The notes under the pieces: generated by a model | The model's input: only the letters and a program-made list of their open reading frames with translations | What the model was told of the DNA's origin: nothing | The model's database searches: none | NCBI GenBank assembly: GCA_017553965.1 | Contig: JAFZJK010000082.1 | Location: 1 to 16,525, forward strand | Length of the DNA: 16,525 nucleotides | Direction of reading: 5' to 3' | DNA from: Lachnospiraceae bacterium | GTDB lineage: Bacteria > Bacillota_A > Clostridia > Lachnospirales > Lachnospiraceae | Shown: positions 2,056-10,401 of the stretch, one piece after another | Layout: each line of letters starts with the position of its first letter | Numbering within the stretch: the stretch's first letter is position 1 | Made by a program: the position numbers and the translations under genes

Positions 2056-3015
2056 TTAGGTGAAGTATACTACTTCTTCCTCGGCTGGTATTGCATCTTC
2101 AAGCTTAGTAACATAGAGGACCGGACCTCTGCCTCTGTATTCACGCCTGAGCTCGATCTTGATCTTGGCCTCTACATTTATCCATTCTCTGTTGTTATGC
2201 GAATTTAAAAAATCTGCATAGTATGAAGGGATACGAGCCGTAAAACCTATAAATCCAATATCGTTTGCACAGCACTGCATTGCGAATCTTCCGGGTACAA
2301 AGGCTCCTTTTCCCATTTTGGGGTCTTTGTATACCTGAGCCTTGAAGGTAATGTTCTTCTCATTGTACTTCTTCGGGAAATCAAGTATGTCCAGATACCA
2401 GAGTCCGAAGTCATCATCCTCTATAACAATGGGATTAGCCTTGATATCAAAAGGAAGCTCGTCCTCTTCCTCTTTATCCATATCTGTTCCGTCACTGCTC
2501 TCATAGATAAGCTGTGCTTTTCTGTTTACAGGCTTTACGATACGACGGAACTCGTTTTTCTTGGTATCTTTTGTACACCTGTTAAATATCACGGTATCGG
2601 AATACTTGATTTGCTCCATGATAATCGAACGCATATTGTTCACGTAATTCATGAAGGTAGAAGCATCCACCATGGTTATGAGCTGTACCGTAGTCCATCC
2701 AGCAGGCATCTCCATCTCGAGTAACTCCTGCATCTGCCATACACCGTTAAGCTCTACTATAATCTTATCGGGATGATACTCTGCATTAAGTTCTTCGAGC
2801 TTTTGGTTTGTAAAGTCTTCTTTTTCCTCGATATACTCTACATAAATGTTCTTTTTTCTGAATTTGTCTTCATCATACTCCTCCTCACCTTCCTCGCAGG
2901 CGATAAGAAGTATTCTGTCTCCGTTTATAAACTCAGGATCCTCAAGAGTGGTCTTTATAAAAGTAGTCTTACCCGACTCAAGAAATCCGTTTATAAGATA
3001 TACCGGTATATCCAT
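2056..3015 (-). CDS. CobW-like G3E GTPase without the CxCC motif, with a TIGR03943/DUF1980-like C-terminal domain
   Basis: Predicted cytoplasmic P-loop GTPase of the G3E/COG0523 superfamily, probably acting in metal handling. The P-loop GFLESGKTTF is at residues 10-19 and the base-recognition motif is a degenerate NRCTKD at 145-150. The CxCC metal motif expected after strand 2 is missing; an acidic stretch rich in Glu and Asp (41-50) stands in that area instead. The usual CobW_C domain is also not evident. Residues about 222-319 (VYKDP, GRFAMQCCAND at 243-252, a terminal VYF) resemble the C-terminal domain of TIGR03943/DUF1980 proteins from memory of that family. The ATG at 3015 (319 residues) was chosen because GAGGTG precedes it; the in-frame ATG at 3027 has no such site. 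It is last in the long operon, 65 bp after the His-rich GTPase. Confidence 0.8.
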   Translation of the reverse strand: MDIPVYLINGFLESGKTTFIKTTLEDPEFINGDRILLIACEEGEEEYDEDKFRKKNIYVEYIEEKEDFTNQKLEELNAEYHPDKIIVELNGVWQMQELLEMEMPAGWTTVQLITMVDASTFMNYVNNMRSIIMEQIKYSDTVIFNRCTKDTKKNEFRRIVKPVNRKAQLIYESSDGTDMDKEEEDELPFDIKANPIVIEDDDFGLWYLDILDFPKKYNEKNITFKAQVYKDPKMGKGAFVPGRFAMQCCANDIGFIGFTARIPSYYADFLNSHNNREWINVEAKIKIELRREYRGRGPVLYVTKLEDAIPAEEEVVYFT

Positions 3016-3078
3016 ATTACACCTCATCAGTCAGCAAAGTTGACAGCTTTCCCTCAAGGGAAAGCCTAATTTAATTAG
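3016..3078 (-). repeat. Hairpin repeat element (MITE/REP-like) filling the gap between the two GTPase genes
   Basis: Almost the entire intergenic gap is structured. GCTTTCCC and GGGAAAGC (3046-3053 and 3058-3065) form an 8-bp hairpin with loop TCAA. GTCAGC and GTTGAC (3030-3035 and 3039-3044) form a second with loop AAA. CTAATT/AATTAG (3066-3078) is a third, perfect inverted repeat. Read on the minus strand the order is AT-rich palindrome, GC hairpin, GTCA/TGAC hairpin, then GATGAGGTG. This layout resembles a short mobile repeat that I recall as common in gut Clostridia. The final GAGGTG serves as ribosome binding site for the ATG at 3015. Confidence 0.6.
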
Positions 3079-3080
3079 TA

Positions 3081-4310
3081 TTAAGCAAAAAGTGCTTTGA
3101 TCTGCTCCTCATTGATCTTGCTTCCGATAACACAGATCTTACCGATTACATCAGCACTGCCGCGTCTAACCTCGGACTCCTCGGGTACATGATCGAAATG
3201 TATCCATTCGCCCTCTGTAGATGCTACGATACCCTTGGCTCTCAAGATGGTACCGAATTCTTCCGGAGTATCAAGTCTCTTCAGAATATCAGCTATCTCA
3301 TCCTCGGTAAACTTCTTGGTAGTCTCGATACCGACACTTGTAAATACTTCATCTGCATGATGATGGTGATGATGTCCGTCATGGTCATGGTGATGATGCT
3401 CGTGATGGTGATGCTCATGCTCATCCTCGTCGTCATCATCGTCATCGTGGTGGTGATGATGGTGATGCTCGTGCTCATCCTCGTCGTCATCGTCATCATC
3501 GTGGTGGTGATGATGGTGATGCTCGTGCTCGTCCTCGTCGTCATCATCGTCATCGTGGTGGTGATGATGGTGATGCTCATGCTCATCCTCGTCATCATCG
3601 TCGTCGTGATGGTGATGGTGGTGATCATGTCCGCAGCACTCCTCGCCGTCCTCATGATGATGTCCGCACTCCGGACAGATGCCTGCTGCTTCAAGAAGTT
3701 CATCTTCAAATTTTGACTTTTCTTCCATAGCTGCCAGTATCTTTGATCCGTCAAGTTCATCCCAAGGAGTGGTTATAAGTACAGCCTTGTCGTTATGTTC
3801 ACGGATAAGTTGAACAGCTGTAGCCAGTTTTTCTTCGGAACAATTCTGTGTTCTGCTTAAAATTATAGTCTTAGCGTACTCTATCTGGTTATTGAAGAAC
3901 TCACCAAAGTTCTTCATGTACATCTTGCACTTGCCTGCATCAACTACAGCCACAAAGTTATTTACTACAATACCTGCATCCTCAGCCACATCCTGGATAG
4001 CCTTTATAACATCCGAAAGCTTACCTACACCTGAAGGCTCGATGATGATCCTGTCGGGAGAAAACTGCTTCATAACATCCTTTAAAGCTATACCGAAATC
4101 ACCTACCAATGTACAGCAAATACATCCGGAGTTCATCTCTGTTATCTCAATACCGGAATCCTTTAAGAATCCTCCGTCAATACCGATCTCACCGAATTCG
4201 TTTTCGATAAGTACAATCTTTTCGCCCTTGAAAGCTTCTGCAATAAGCTTTTTAATAAGAGTAGTCTTTCCGGCTCCTAAAAATCCGGAAAAAATGTCAA
4301 CCTTTGTCAT
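3081..4310 (-). CDS. CobW/COG0523 metallochaperone GTPase with giant His/Asp repeat
   Basis: G3E-family GTPase expected to load or buffer a metal, most likely zinc. The P-loop GFLGAGKTT is at residues 10-18, ENEFGEIGID at 36-45, the metal motif CICC at 63-66 and EPSG at 91-94. The NKxD position is degenerate (SRTQ, 152-155). Residues about 212-318 are an insert: a CPEC/ECC cysteine cluster (212-226), then about 50 histidines in repeats of HEHHHHHHHDDDDDDEDE. The CobW C-terminal domain follows (about 320-405). His stretches here are common in the family but usually far shorter. The start at 4310 has GGAGGG seven bases upstream; an in-frame ATG at 4325 lies inside the amidase gene and lacks a site. 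The ribosome binding site is formed by the last codons of the amidase, so translation is probably coupled. Confidence 0.92.
   Translation of the reverse strand: MTKVDIFSGFLGAGKTTLIKKLIAEAFKGEKIVLIENEFGEIGIDGGFLKDSGIEITEMNSGCICCTLVGDFGIALKDVMKQFSPDRIIIEPSGVGKLSDVIKAIQDVAEDAGIVVNNFVAVVDAGKCKMYMKNFGEFFNNQIEYAKTIILSRTQNCSEEKLATAVQLIREHNDKAVLITTPWDELDGSKILAAMEEKSKFEDELLEAAGICPECGHHHEDGEECCGHDHHHHHHDDDDDEDEHEHHHHHHHDDDDDDEDEHEHHHHHHHDDDDDDEDEHEHHHHHHHDDDDDDEDEHEHHHHEHHHHDHDGHHHHHHADEVFTSVGIETTKKFTEDEIADILKRLDTPEEFGTILRAKGIVASTEGEWIHFDHVPEESEVRRGSADVIGKICVIGSKINEEQIKALFA
3413..3625 (-). repeat. 54-bp tandem repeat encoding the His/Asp region
   Basis: Three full 54-bp units (3413-3466, 3467-3520, 3521-3574) are followed by a shortened 51-bp unit (3575-3625). 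Units differ only by a few synonymous CAT/CAC and GAT/GAC changes. Each unit encodes one 18-residue block of His then Asp/Glu. The pattern points to growth by unequal crossing-over or slippage, so copy number probably varies between strains. Confidence 0.9.
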
Positions 4311-4314
4311 TACA

Positions 4315-5238
4315 TTACCCTCCATAATAACTTTCTTTAAAATTATCTATGCCATCAACTATTCCTTCCGCTATTTTACTCTGATATGCAGGATCGGCGA
4401 GCTTTGCAGCTTCTGTCGCATCGGTCACATATCCGCACTCAAAGATAATGGCAGGCATGGTGGTTTTACTTGTTACAACGAGGTTCTTCCTAAAATGAGT
4501 ACCTCTGTTTTTGGCTCCGGTTTTTTTAGCTGCCGCCTCAGCTACCGCAATACCCAGATCTTCACAGCCTTCCCTGTCATACGTCCATGACTCCATACCG
4601 CTGGCAGAACCTTCTGAAGCATCAAGTGAATTCTGATGTATACTGATCAGACATACCGGATCGTCCAGTGCATTAGCTATTGAAGCACGCTGTGTCAGAC
4701 CCACAAACTCATCATATGGTCTTGTAAGCTTAACGGAATAACCTCTTAATTCCAGCTCTTCCTTTAGCTTATATGATATCTCAAGATTTATAGTTTTTTC
4801 TAATATACCGTTTCCCTCGGCACCGCCGTCATAACCTCCGTGTCCGGCATCAACTATGACAAGTCCCTTACTGCCCGGTATTATATCTTTATACAGAGCC
4901 GCTCTTCTGTCAGCCTCAGTAAGCTCAGGTTTATCTTCTATTTCAAAGAATGTATCCACACCTTTAAGTGCAGAACCAAGTGAATTGTCTACGAGCCATA
5001 CATCGTTATATTCACCTACATATTCTTTATAAGTAATATTTTCAATATGTTCGTTGTATTTATTCTTTATAAAATTCACCAGTAATATGATTATTATAAT
5101 AAGAAGTATCAGCACAACGCCAAAAAAGGACAGCAAAACAAGGAGCCTCTTACGTTTTCTTTTTCGTATAAAGGCCTTCTTTCTTCTGTCCCTGTCATTC
5201 TGGTCATACAATACATTATACATTGCACGAGATGACAT
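4315..5238 (-). CDS. N-acetylmuramoyl-L-alanine amidase (Amidase_3), membrane anchored
   Basis: Zinc-dependent cell-wall hydrolase that cleaves the bond between N-acetylmuramic acid and L-alanine. Residues 15-31 are strongly basic and are followed by a hydrophobic helix (about 32-56), giving an N-in signal anchor. A linker leads to the Amidase_3 domain (about 125-302). The metal ligands fit His133 (VDAGHGG), Glu147 (ILEKTIN) and His201 (ISIHQNS), and the catalytic Glu is Glu267 (FECGYVTD). The ATG at 5238 has GAAGGAG seven bases upstream and overlaps the mgtC end by 23 bp. The stop is four bases before the start of the His-rich CobW GTPase. No cell-wall binding repeats or SPOR domain are present. 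The neighbour suggests, but does not prove, zinc supply to this enzyme. Confidence 0.93.
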   Translation of the reverse strand: MSSRAMYNVLYDQNDRDRRKKAFIRKRKRKRLLVLLSFFGVVLILLIIIIILLVNFIKNKYNEHIENITYKEYVGEYNDVWLVDNSLGSALKGVDTFFEIEDKPELTEADRRAALYKDIIPGSKGLVIVDAGHGGYDGGAEGNGILEKTINLEISYKLKEELELRGYSVKLTRPYDEFVGLTQRASIANALDDPVCLISIHQNSLDASEGSASGMESWTYDREGCEDLGIAVAEAAAKKTGAKNRGTHFRKNLVVTSKTTMPAIIFECGYVTDATEAAKLADPAYQSKIAEGIVDGIDNFKESYYGG

Positions 5239-8049: not shown

Positions 8050-10401
8050 TTAATTCCTATAGAAATTGATCAGACAGCCGTCAAGTATTATCTGTCTTTC
8101 ATCATCACTTAAAGCACCGAGTGTAAATACAACTTCCTTTGCGCTTCCAAAGCTTCCGTCGGCATTTGCACTGAATACATAAGCCTTGATCTCATCTGTC
8201 TTATCTGTAAGAGCTTTACGTACATCGGGAACAAATACATAGTCACCCTTATGTATCTCCTGTCCTGCATACAGGAAAGGAAGCATACCCCAGTTAATGA
8301 GGTTTGAACGGTAACGTTTTGTAGCATATTCGCCTGCGATATTTGCCCAAGCACCAAGTACCTTCTGGCACGATGCTGCCTGCTCACGTGCCGAGCCGTC
8401 ACCGGGCTTGGTACAGAATATTGTACTGCCTAAGCATACATCTTTTTCAGCCACATTAAAGCTCTTGGTAACCAAGTCAAGTACCTTTTCGTACTCGTCC
8501 TTAAGCTCTCCGGCATCCTTAGCAAAACCGTACTGATCGATCTCAGACTCAGGTGTGTTAAGTCCTGCAGCCCTATTCATCCTGATCTGTCTGTCTTTTT
8601 CAACAGCTCTAACCTTCTTTGACTCGCCGACATAATCGGGATCTCTTCTTGAAAGTGCAAACTCAGCAAGTCCCAAAGGATTTGATCTGTATGAAGAAGT
8701 CTCACCCGAAGGGATAAGTTCATCAGTGGTAGTAACGGGATCATGGATCTCACTTACGCACTTTATAAGCAGGTTATCGGAAAGTTCATTCATTCTGGGC
8801 CAGTCCTTAATATTAGGTCCAAAATGAATATCACATGTCGGATCGGCCTTACCTACGCAGTCAAGTACTCTTCTGTCGTATATAGTCTTATCAAAGAAAT
8901 ATTTATACTTGTTGATCTCGATACCCTCAAGCTCATCTGCACCAGTAAGGAAGCCCTTGTTAGCAGCGGTAGCTGCGATAGATCTTGCATCCATAAGAGC
9001 AACTGATGATATCTGACCGTTCTGTATCTTGGAACCTTCTCTGTTCGGGAAGTTACGTGTACTATGTCTGATAGAGAATGCATTGTTAGCGGGAGTATCG
9101 CCTGCACCGAAGCAGGGACCGCAGAATGCAGTCTTAATAACAGCACCGGCTTCGATAAGTTTTGCTGCAGCGCCGTTCTTAACAAGCTCCATGTATACAG
9201 GCATGGATGCAGGGTATACACTCAGTGAGAACTTGCCGTTTCCGATATCGGCTTTACCTAAGATATCAGCAGCCTCACATATGTTTTCAAATCCACCGCC
9301 TGCACATCCTGCAATGATGCCCTGTTCAACGTAGAGCTTACCGTCTATTATCTTATCCATAAGTGAGTATTCGCACTTGTCGCCGAAGCTTACCTTTGCT
9401 CTCTGCTCACACTCATACAGATAATCCTTAAGATTAGCCTTTACATCACTGATCGCATAAGCCTTTGAAGGATGGAAAGGCATAGCTATCATGGGTTTAA
9501 CCTTGGAAAGATCGATAACTACTGCACCGTCGTAACATGCAACGCCATCAACCTTAAGAGGCTTATATGCATTCTTTCTTCCATGGATATCGAGCCACTC
9601 TTCAACTGCTTCATCTGTTTCCCAGATAGAAGAAAGACATGTGGTCTCGGTAGTCATTACATCTATACCGATTCGGAAGTCTACACTCAAATTCTTTACA
9701 CCGGGGCCTACGAACTCAAGTACTTTGTTCTTAACAAAGCCGCTGTCAAATGTTGCACCAACAAGTGCAAGTGCCACATCATGAGGGCCTACACCGAAGT
9801 TGGGCTTACCGGTAAGGTAGATACATATTACGTCGGGTCTTGCTACATCATAAGTACGTCCCAAAAGCTGCTTTGCAAGCTCTCCGCCGCCTTCACCTAC
9901 TGCCATGGTACCTAATGCACCGTAACGTGTATGTGAATCTGAACCAAGTATCATATCACCGCAGCCTGCGAGCATTTCTCTTGCAAACTGATGGATAACT
10001 GCCTGATGAGGGGGTACATATACTCCGCCGTACTTCTTTGCAGCAGTAAGACCAAACATATGGTCATCCTCATTTATTGTACCGCCTACTGCGCAAAGTG
10101 AGTTATGGCAGTTGGTAAGAACATAAGGAATAGGGAACTGTGTTAGTCCGCTGGCACGTGCAGTCTGAATGATACCTACATAGGTAATATCATGTGAAGT
10201 AATTTTATCAAATTTGATCTTTAACTTCTCGGGATCACCCGATACATTATGCTTGCTCATTATAGAGTAGCTTAAGGTGTTATCCCTGAGTGACGCGTCA
10301 TTTACATTGATCCCTTTTGCCTGAAGCTTTGCACATCCTGCCTCATCTGCTTCAATAAGTTCACCGTTTACAAGAAATACTTTGTTCTTTATCAAGTCCA
10401 T
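8050..10401 (-). CDS. Aconitase-family hydratase (YbhJ-like)
   Basis: Iron-sulfur hydro-lyase; with isocitrate dehydrogenase nearby the likely reaction is citrate to isocitrate. The 783-residue protein has the aconitase domain order. GSDSHTRYGALG (153-164) is the substrate-binding DSHT motif. The [4Fe-4S] ligands fit Cys366 (GCAGGGFENI) and Cys427/Cys430 (CGPCFGAG). RHSTRNFPNREG (445-456) corresponds to the SxRNFxGR region. The C-terminal swivel domain has GDGSAREQAA (near 670) and INWGMLPF. It is closer in length and motif spelling to E. coli YbhJ, a poorly characterised member, than to AcnA or AcnB. A GGAAGGA site lies about 12 bases before the ATG, a slightly long spacing. It begins 34 bp after the DUF5662 gene. 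Confidence 0.88.
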   Translation of the reverse strand: MDLIKNKVFLVNGELIEADEAGCAKLQAKGINVNDASLRDNTLSYSIMSKHNVSGDPEKLKIKFDKITSHDITYVGIIQTARASGLTQFPIPYVLTNCHNSLCAVGGTINEDDHMFGLTAAKKYGGVYVPPHQAVIHQFAREMLAGCGDMILGSDSHTRYGALGTMAVGEGGGELAKQLLGRTYDVARPDVICIYLTGKPNFGVGPHDVALALVGATFDSGFVKNKVLEFVGPGVKNLSVDFRIGIDVMTTETTCLSSIWETDEAVEEWLDIHGRKNAYKPLKVDGVACYDGAVVIDLSKVKPMIAMPFHPSKAYAISDVKANLKDYLYECEQRAKVSFGDKCEYSLMDKIIDGKLYVEQGIIAGCAGGGFENICEAADILGKADIGNGKFSLSVYPASMPVYMELVKNGAAAKLIEAGAVIKTAFCGPCFGAGDTPANNAFSIRHSTRNFPNREGSKIQNGQISSVALMDARSIAATAANKGFLTGADELEGIEINKYKYFFDKTIYDRRVLDCVGKADPTCDIHFGPNIKDWPRMNELSDNLLIKCVSEIHDPVTTTDELIPSGETSSYRSNPLGLAEFALSRRDPDYVGESKKVRAVEKDRQIRMNRAAGLNTPESEIDQYGFAKDAGELKDEYEKVLDLVTKSFNVAEKDVCLGSTIFCTKPGDGSAREQAASCQKVLGAWANIAGEYATKRYRSNLINWGMLPFLYAGQEIHKGDYVFVPDVRKALTDKTDEIKAYVFSANADGSFGSAKEVVFTLGALSDDERQIILDGCLINFYRN

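Follow-up and report, generated by a model that had tools for sequence, protein, structure and literature searches.

In a stretch of 16,525 nucleotides from a Lachnospiraceae bacterium (assembly GCA_017553965.1, contig JAFZJK010000082.1; hereafter the window), two adjacent genes, P2 and P1, encode a His-rich COG0523 metallochaperone-type GTPase and a fusion of a second, CxCC-less G3E-type GTPase to the DUF1980_C domain, respectively. On balance, we favor the explanation that an operon for metal transport across the membrane gave rise to P1 and P2, and that the two genes now encode a unit, probably heteromeric, that handles metal in the cytosol. We give an even chance to the broader proposal that a transport complex turned into a cytosolic machine, in which the metal-site domain of the neighboring membrane subunit was attached to the GTPase otherwise found in a permease fusion and P2 gained a His store, and that P1 thereby defines an undescribed CxCC-less G3E subfamily acting as an asymmetric COG0523 partner. 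This group occurs in four physical forms: permease-fused, membrane-anchored, free, and the soluble fusion represented by P1. The gene and domains of P1 are located in the window as follows.

2056 to 3015, minus strand: P1, CxCC-less G3E-type GTPase::DUF1980_C fusion, 319 residues (open reading frame, Pfam, NCBIfam and alignment).
2509 to 3006, minus strand: G3E/cobW P-loop domain of P1, residues 4–169 (Pfam PF02492; HypB/YjiA fold).
2065 to 2487, minus strand: DUF1980_C OB-fold domain of P1, residues 177–317 (Pfam PF21537; structure model).

The P1 open reading frame runs from an ATG at 3015 to a stop at 2056; an in-frame ATG at 3027 would add four residues, and most aligned homologs favor the 319-residue start. 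Pfam searches established a two-domain architecture, with residues 4–169 matching cobW (PF02492, 52 bits) and residues 177–317 matching DUF1980_C (PF21537, 72.2 bits against a cut-off of 25.9, E 4.4e-20). A first-pass annotation, made from the sequence alone, had proposed that the normal CobW_C domain is replaced in P1 by the C-terminal domain of TIGR03943/DUF1980 proteins. Both parts of this proposal hold: CobW_C, a domain expected of COG0523 proteins, gave no Pfam match at E<=1, and the DUF1980_C domain in its place shares the CCxxD motif with TIGR03943 proteins. The N-terminal membrane domain of DUF1980 (PF09323) also gave no Pfam match at E<=1, and the NCBIfam model TIGR03943 aligned to the C-terminal part only (residues 173–307, 59.5 bits, under the cut-off of 88.8). 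Moreover, a hydropathy scan predicted no transmembrane segment in P1 at 79 of 80 loci, which are the best 80 of 570 confirmed loci from GTDB genomes.

Structural analysis agreed with this architecture. The N-terminal domain matched the HypB and YjiA folds, as expected for a G3E protein, and YjiA was the sole meaningful match in PDB sequence searches. Since a fold search with the whole model hardly probed the C-terminal domain, this domain was modeled separately, yielding a confident OB-fold, and fold searches matched it to OB-folds. An ordinary CobW_C fold, the outcome that would have spoken against the first-pass annotation, was thus not seen; CobW_C-fold structures were absent from the best 50 matches of each C-domain search, a result that leaves room for distant kinship. 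An OB-fold could also bind nucleic acid, making P1 a metal- or nucleotide-responsive regulator, which we consider very unlikely. The fusion of the two domains is not due to chance, because 3387 homologs were found at E<=0.001 and 118 of the 120 listed carry both Pfam domains; the remaining two are partial, with one domain each (P0065, 215 residues; P0069, 211 residues). We rejected an assignment of P1 to the family NF041053, 'CobW-related selenoprotein', since its score of 46.7 bits is below the cut-off of 180. When two small membrane-anchored GTPases were compared with this family, one reached 19.2 and the other gave no score.

Sequence motifs of P1 are distributed over both domains.

2962 to 2988, minus strand: Walker A motif GFLESGKTT, residues 10–18 (sequence; conserved in alignment A1).
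2872 to 2898, minus strand: acidic switch-I segment CEEGEEEYD, residues 40–48, at the position of NEFGE..D in COG0523 proteins (alignments).
2743 to 2754, minus strand: Walker B motif ELNG, residues 88–91 (alignments; homolog and locus counts).
2578 to 2583, minus strand: Asn145-Arg146 at the NKxD position (alignment; locus counts).
2260 to 2274, minus strand: CCxxD motif, residues 248–252, a candidate metal site common to TIGR03943 proteins (alignments).

Alignment A1, comprising the window P1 and 27 homologs, shows little or no variation in the P-loop, the CEEGEEEYD region, the Walker B Glu-x-Asn-Gly, the Asn-Arg pair at the NKxD position and PGRxAMxCCxxD. Two G3E hallmarks are evident among the listed homologs: the Walker A P-loop, correctly read as intact by the first-pass annotation, is present in 119 of 120, and the Walker B Glu lies within ExNG in 118 of 120, with Glu88 invariant in A1. 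A third, an intact NKxD, is lacking, as its Lys is changed to Arg (Asn-Arg in 75 of 80 loci) with no conserved Asp after it. The loss of CxCC, also pointed out in that annotation, is complete. The alignments lack the CxCC loop expected after CEEGEEEYD, and the pattern C.CC occurs neither in the first 200 residues of the 120 listed homologs nor in the first 180 residues of the 80 locus copies, which sets P1 apart from COG0523 as defined by this motif. The position of YjiA Glu37 is occupied by a non-acidic residue in the P1 group (Ala39 in the window), and neither Glu37 nor Cys66/Cys67 of YjiA, named in the title of PDB 4IXN, a triple mutant, is kept. In the C-terminal domain, His takes the place of the first Cys of CCxxD in L085 and L087 (our locus numbers carry an L), two of eight TIGR03943 proteins in alignment A2, and in none of 25 others. 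Such a Cys/His exchange, seen in two sequences, would fit a metal ligand.

Directly upstream of P1 lies P2, which bears out the claim that P1 follows a full metallochaperone.

3081 to 4310, minus strand: P2, His-rich COG0523 metallochaperone-type GTPase, 409 residues (Pfam, NCBIfam and locus survey).
4113 to 4127, minus strand: GCICC (CxCC) motif of P2 (sequence).
3356 to 3655, minus strand: His/Asp/Glu-rich linker of P2 (tandem-repeat analysis).
3087 to 3344, minus strand: CobW_C domain of P2 (Pfam PF07683).

P2 starts at 4310, stops at 3081, and contains GCICC, CobW_C and 53 His residues. Most of its linker is encoded by a 54-bp tandem repeat of about 4.2 copies (3403–3625), so linker length may differ among strains. 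The number of His residues per P2 ranges from 28 to 66 (median 42) in 69 full-length copies, and from 2 to 16 in COG0523 proteins (n=14) of the loci encoding GTPase::ArsP_1 permease fusions described below. The two genes are separated in the window by 65 bases (3016–3080), within which an inverted repeat, GGCTTTCCCT..AGGGAAAGCT, might fold into an intergenic hairpin. On the other side of P2, an Amidase_3 gene (4315–5238) ends just ahead of the P2 start, and given this closeness the two are probably co-transcribed.

The pairing of P2 with P1 is highly conserved. P2 is located directly upstream of P1 on the same strand in 78 of the 80 loci, with a median gap of 28 bp; some of these P2 genes are partial, being cut by a contig end, and the two loci without P2 (L003 and L071) start at the end of a contig or close to it. 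In a second genome set (30 loci, L164–L193, 7 of them identical in sequence to loci already counted and 23 new), P2 was upstream of P1 in 30 of 30, or 23 of 23 among the new loci. The pair therefore occurs in about a hundred distinct loci, answering the concern of the first-pass annotation that it might be peculiar to one strain. No third gene is conserved beside the pair: every other neighbor family is found in at most 20 of 80 loci, headed by Amidase_3 (20), an ABC ATPase representative (18), YicC (15) and an ABC exporter-type family (15). This pattern bears on the possibility that P1 is an insertase for one metalloenzyme, similar to UreG, HypB or a nitrile-hydratase activator, with P2 as the metal donor. 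We regard that possibility as unlikely, as no client gene is conserved beside the pair and even the amidase is missing from three quarters of the loci.

The P1 alignment matched 184 of 200 Lachnospiraceae genomes at E<=0.001. After dropping six weak matches (G456, G505, G516, G529, G576 and G585), about 178 of 200 genomes remain P1-strong, a count based on match strength without inspection of the fusion in each. Of the 16 genomes without a P1 match, 15 lack a P2 match too, and the exception, G459, shows a weak match to COG0523. COG0523 matches were found in all of five weak-P1 genomes (G456, G505, G516, G529 and G585). A check of 17 P1-bearing genomes for P2 revealed 15 strong matches, a partial one in G422 and none in G426 (1.2 Mb). 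In a wider set of 299 genomes of the phylum, DUF1980_C exceeded the cut-off in 21 genomes at 24 places, which comprise 7 P1-type fusions, 14 stand-alone TIGR03943-type proteins and 3 weak unclassified matches (L103, L104 and L110). The seven P1 copies reside in six genomes, partly overlapping other loci (L083 lies in the genome of L038, and L193 in that of L097), and P2 adjoins six of them. One genome carries a diverged second P1 copy (L113:7162–8097, identical to L109). Loss of CxCC and degeneration of NKxD might suggest that P1 is a functionless relic. This idea is scarcely credible, given a strong match in most genomes of the family and the joint conservation of P-loop, Walker B, CCxxD and partner.

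The membrane relatives of P1 were located through TIGR03943 and through the GTPase. That TIGR03943 genes stand beside a permease in other Firmicutes, as the first-pass annotation stated, was confirmed: in 13 of 14 regions, a gene next to stand-alone TIGR03943 and on its strand encodes a multi-spanning membrane protein, and the two of these neighbors that were scanned (L111 and L114) are ArsP_1 permeases. The stated vicinity of CobW genes was found as well, with a CxCC-containing COG0523 gene adjoining TIGR03943 in 3 of the 14 regions (L111, L121 and L123) and present at 14 of 18 permease-fusion loci. In five of 113 genomes searched, TIGR03943 clusters with the gene of a small GTPase that lacks CxCC and carries a membrane helix at its C-terminus; this gene directly follows TIGR03943 in L112, and a COG0523 gene separates the two in L111, L194, L195 and L196. 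The order in L194 is fur, znuA, ABC ATPase, ABC-3 permease, ArsP_1, TIGR03943, COG0523 and small GTPase. The GTPase of L195 (5425–6069) belongs to a tiny family; its relative P0122 has 14 homologs, with Desulfofarcimen, Desulforamulus and Desulfotomaculum as the named sources. In L196, the permease beside TIGR03943 appears as two shorter open reading frames (8443–9533).

A third arrangement fuses the GTPase to the permease itself. Genomes G505 (L197) and G585 (L198 and L199), which have no full P1, encode a CxCC-less GTPase::ArsP_1 fusion, TIGR03943 and a P2-like gene; ZnuA lies near L197 and L198, and none was recognized in L199. In L198 (6812–13756), a fur-family gene, ZnuA, ABC genes, GTPase::permease, TIGR03943 and COG0523 lie next to one another on one strand, and this cluster is a promising candidate for a complete system of the membrane type. 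A homolog search with one such fusion yielded 135 proteins, and all 120 listed combine cobW with ArsP_1. We examined 18 fusion loci from 391 Clostridia genomes, leaving out one full-length fusion (G736:C43). TIGR03943 follows the fusion directly on the same strand in all 18, and a P2-like COG0523 gene lies beside it in 14 (11 on the same strand, 3 divergent); of the other four loci, L203 starts at a contig end and three have flanks of at most 1.5 kb. In L216, L220, L222 and L223, the GTPase is a separate gene next to the permease; each of the four has an upstream COG0523-like open reading frame that is cut by the locus end, with CxCC visible in two, and three contain TIGR03943.

Sequence comparison tied both halves of P1 to parts of these operons. 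The Walker B form ExNG is shared by 118 of 120 listed P1 homologs, 119 of 120 listed permease fusions and 16 of 16 membrane-anchored relatives, none of which contains C.CC in its first 200 residues (0 of 256); ExNG thus marks the CxCC-less group, whereas the COG0523 proteins compared have Ex[ST]G. A profile hidden Markov model (HMM) of the P1 GTPase scored the 18 permease-fused GTPases at 39–174 bits, with the closest (L207, L209–L211 and L224) at 137–174, and full-length neighboring COG0523 proteins at 59–78. In the DUF1980_C tree, P1 forms one group (20 rows, support 100/96), which is joined in a set (99/99) by the TIGR03943 proteins of ten operons.

L207, L209–L211, L213, L217, L219 and L224–L226: the ten operons in the DUF1980_C set of P1 (tree).

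The TIGR03943 proteins of the other eight fusion loci, and all remaining ones, fall outside this set. In the GTPase tree, P1 (75/98 alone) joins permease-fused GTPases in a wider set (87/80 and 91/85), to which these ten operons also contribute. The two halves of P1 thus point to one operon lineage. The small membrane-anchored GTPases grouped with P1 in a first tree (94/76, with a long-branch warning), joined the set of P1 and permease fusions once permease-fused GTPases were added (96/75, not starred), and had no resolved placement with still more of them. Because of this shift, our conclusions draw solely on the relationship of P1 to the permease fusions. The operons are ordered COG0523, GTPase::permease and membrane::DUF1980_C, with gaps of 1 to 23 bases (L207, L210 and L211), and the P2-P1 order is the same with the membrane parts missing. 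A single deletion may have been the route to P1.

Given these relatives, P1 might instead be a soluble subunit that docks on a permease encoded elsewhere, so that P1 and P2 still energize or gate metal transport. The same GTPase subfamily is indeed fused to ArsP_1 in all 120 listed fusion homologs and membrane-anchored in five other operons, and 60 of 200 Lachnospiraceae genomes encode ArsP_1 over the cut-off. However, ArsP_1 over the cut-off is lacking in 126 of 178 P1-strong genomes, an ArsP_1-type permease was never among the neighbor families scanned at P1/P2 loci, and P1 is devoid of a predicted transmembrane segment at nearly all loci, which together make docking quite improbable. The low frequency of ArsP_1 and the absence of a membrane segment also indicate that the pair most likely acts as a cytosolic buffer that hands metal on.

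As to the metal, ZnuA lies near the membrane relatives L117, L122 and L194–L198, and Fur near L117, L194 and L198; these counts concern relatives other than the 18 fusion loci. The metal is probably zinc, our best guess by analogy with these neighborhoods. Zur control of P1/P2 was rejected as a supported conclusion, since candidate sites were no more numerous than in shuffled sequences. An Rfam search of the window and 10 of the 80 loci at the gathering threshold returned only a T-box and a tRNA, neither of which we link to the pair.

We thus propose a putative model for the P1/P2 pair. Initially, an operon of the type seen in other Clostridia would have encoded a P2-like COG0523 protein, a CxCC-less GTPase::ArsP_1 fusion and a membrane TIGR03943 protein with DUF1980_C. 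The P1 lineage, made up largely of Lachnospiraceae, would have lost from the unit both the permease and the membrane portion of TIGR03943, leaving the GTPase and DUF1980_C ends in one chain, and the His-rich linker of P2 would have been greatly enlarged. We infer that the two proteins bind metal, nucleotide and each other. P2 would bind the metal, probably Zn2+, via CxCC and store more in its His tract, and the GTPase domains of P1 and P2 would pair up. Afterwards, nucleotide hydrolysis may drive the metal to or through the CCxxD of the P1 OB-fold, and finally to client enzymes.

Several observations weigh against this model. The degenerate NKxD of P1 puts its GTP specificity, and even hydrolysis, in doubt. 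The P1 copy L109 has no P2 among the neighboring genes shown, and 52 of the 178 P1-strong genomes do encode some ArsP_1 permease elsewhere. Regarding kinship, the permease-fused GTPases of L201–L204 score 39–60 bits against the P1 HMM, no better than COG0523 proteins; eight of the 18 fusion loci have a TIGR03943 that falls outside the DUF1980_C set of P1, and the GTPase set includes operons of this kind. Support in the GTPase tree is moderate, with none of its values starred, and two tests did not reject a topology that places P1 together with P2 and COG_L111 (p-AU 0.241 and 0.188). Regarding zinc, neither ZnuA nor Fur was found at P1/P2 loci among the 20 neighbor-family representatives scanned, and a scan of 64 of the 78 regions upstream of P2 found no Zur box above shuffles (1 of 64 regions with <=3 mismatches, 1.25 expected). 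The two-GTPase metal system suggested by the first-pass annotation is well supported by context, because the relatives of P1 are permease-fused or membrane-anchored in operons with the same COG0523 and TIGR03943 partners, but gains nothing from zinc genes in the scanned neighbor families or from a Zur box.

COG0523 proteins are thought to be metallochaperones, and how they acquire metal and hand it over is mostly open. A CxCC-less GTPase almost always encoded beside a COG0523 protein, and fused elsewhere to a permease or its partner domain, would provide a concrete link between metallochaperone and transporter, and P1/P2 is a soluble two-protein version of it amenable to purification. As the pair is present in most genomes sampled of the Lachnospiraceae, a major gut family, it is plausibly a housekeeping metal system there. 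Haas 2009 (PMC2770081) places CXCC in all COG0523 members and employs it also for picking sequences, and section 5 lists an intact NKxD as a G3E feature; with CxCC as the entry criterion stated there, the CxCC-less subfamily would be left out of that 2009 survey. We recognized no description of the P1 fusion or of this subfamily in the open-access literature searched. PMC5584981 describes ScfA (8 transmembrane segments) and ScfB (2 transmembrane segments) as a bicistron, with YcgR and YcgQ of B. subtilis as their uncharacterized counterparts.

Compared with known systems, the N-terminal domain of P1 shares the P-loop, Walker B Glu and overall fold of COG0523/CobW G3E GTPases such as YjiA, ZigA and CobW, of which P2, with GCxCC, CobW_C and a His tract, is an ordinary member. 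P1 differs from them in lacking CxCC, in having Ala at the position of YjiA Glu37, ExNG and a degenerate NKxD, and in carrying DUF1980_C instead of CobW_C. UreG, HypB and MeaB are G3E GTPases for metallocenters or cofactors with a fold related to that of P1, but P1 has another C-terminal domain, a second GTPase as partner and no conserved client cluster. With the systems of TIGR03943/DUF1980 (YcgQ, ScfB) and ArsP_1 (YcgR, ScfA), P1 shares the DUF1980_C domain with CCxxD; unlike TIGR03943 proteins, it has no DUF1980 N-terminal membrane half and stays below the TIGR03943 cut-off, and most P1-strong genomes, the 126 noted above, have no ArsP_1 over the cut-off. P1 is most reminiscent of the Clostridia GTPase::ArsP_1 fusions, which bear source names such as 'permease', 'uncharacterized membrane protein YraQ' and 'putative two-component membrane permease complex subunit'. 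They contain the same type of GTPase, without CxCC and with ExNG, usually next to the same COG0523 neighbor and adjacent to a DUF1980_C protein; these fusions link the GTPase to the permease, whereas P1 links it to DUF1980_C and lacks the membrane parts.
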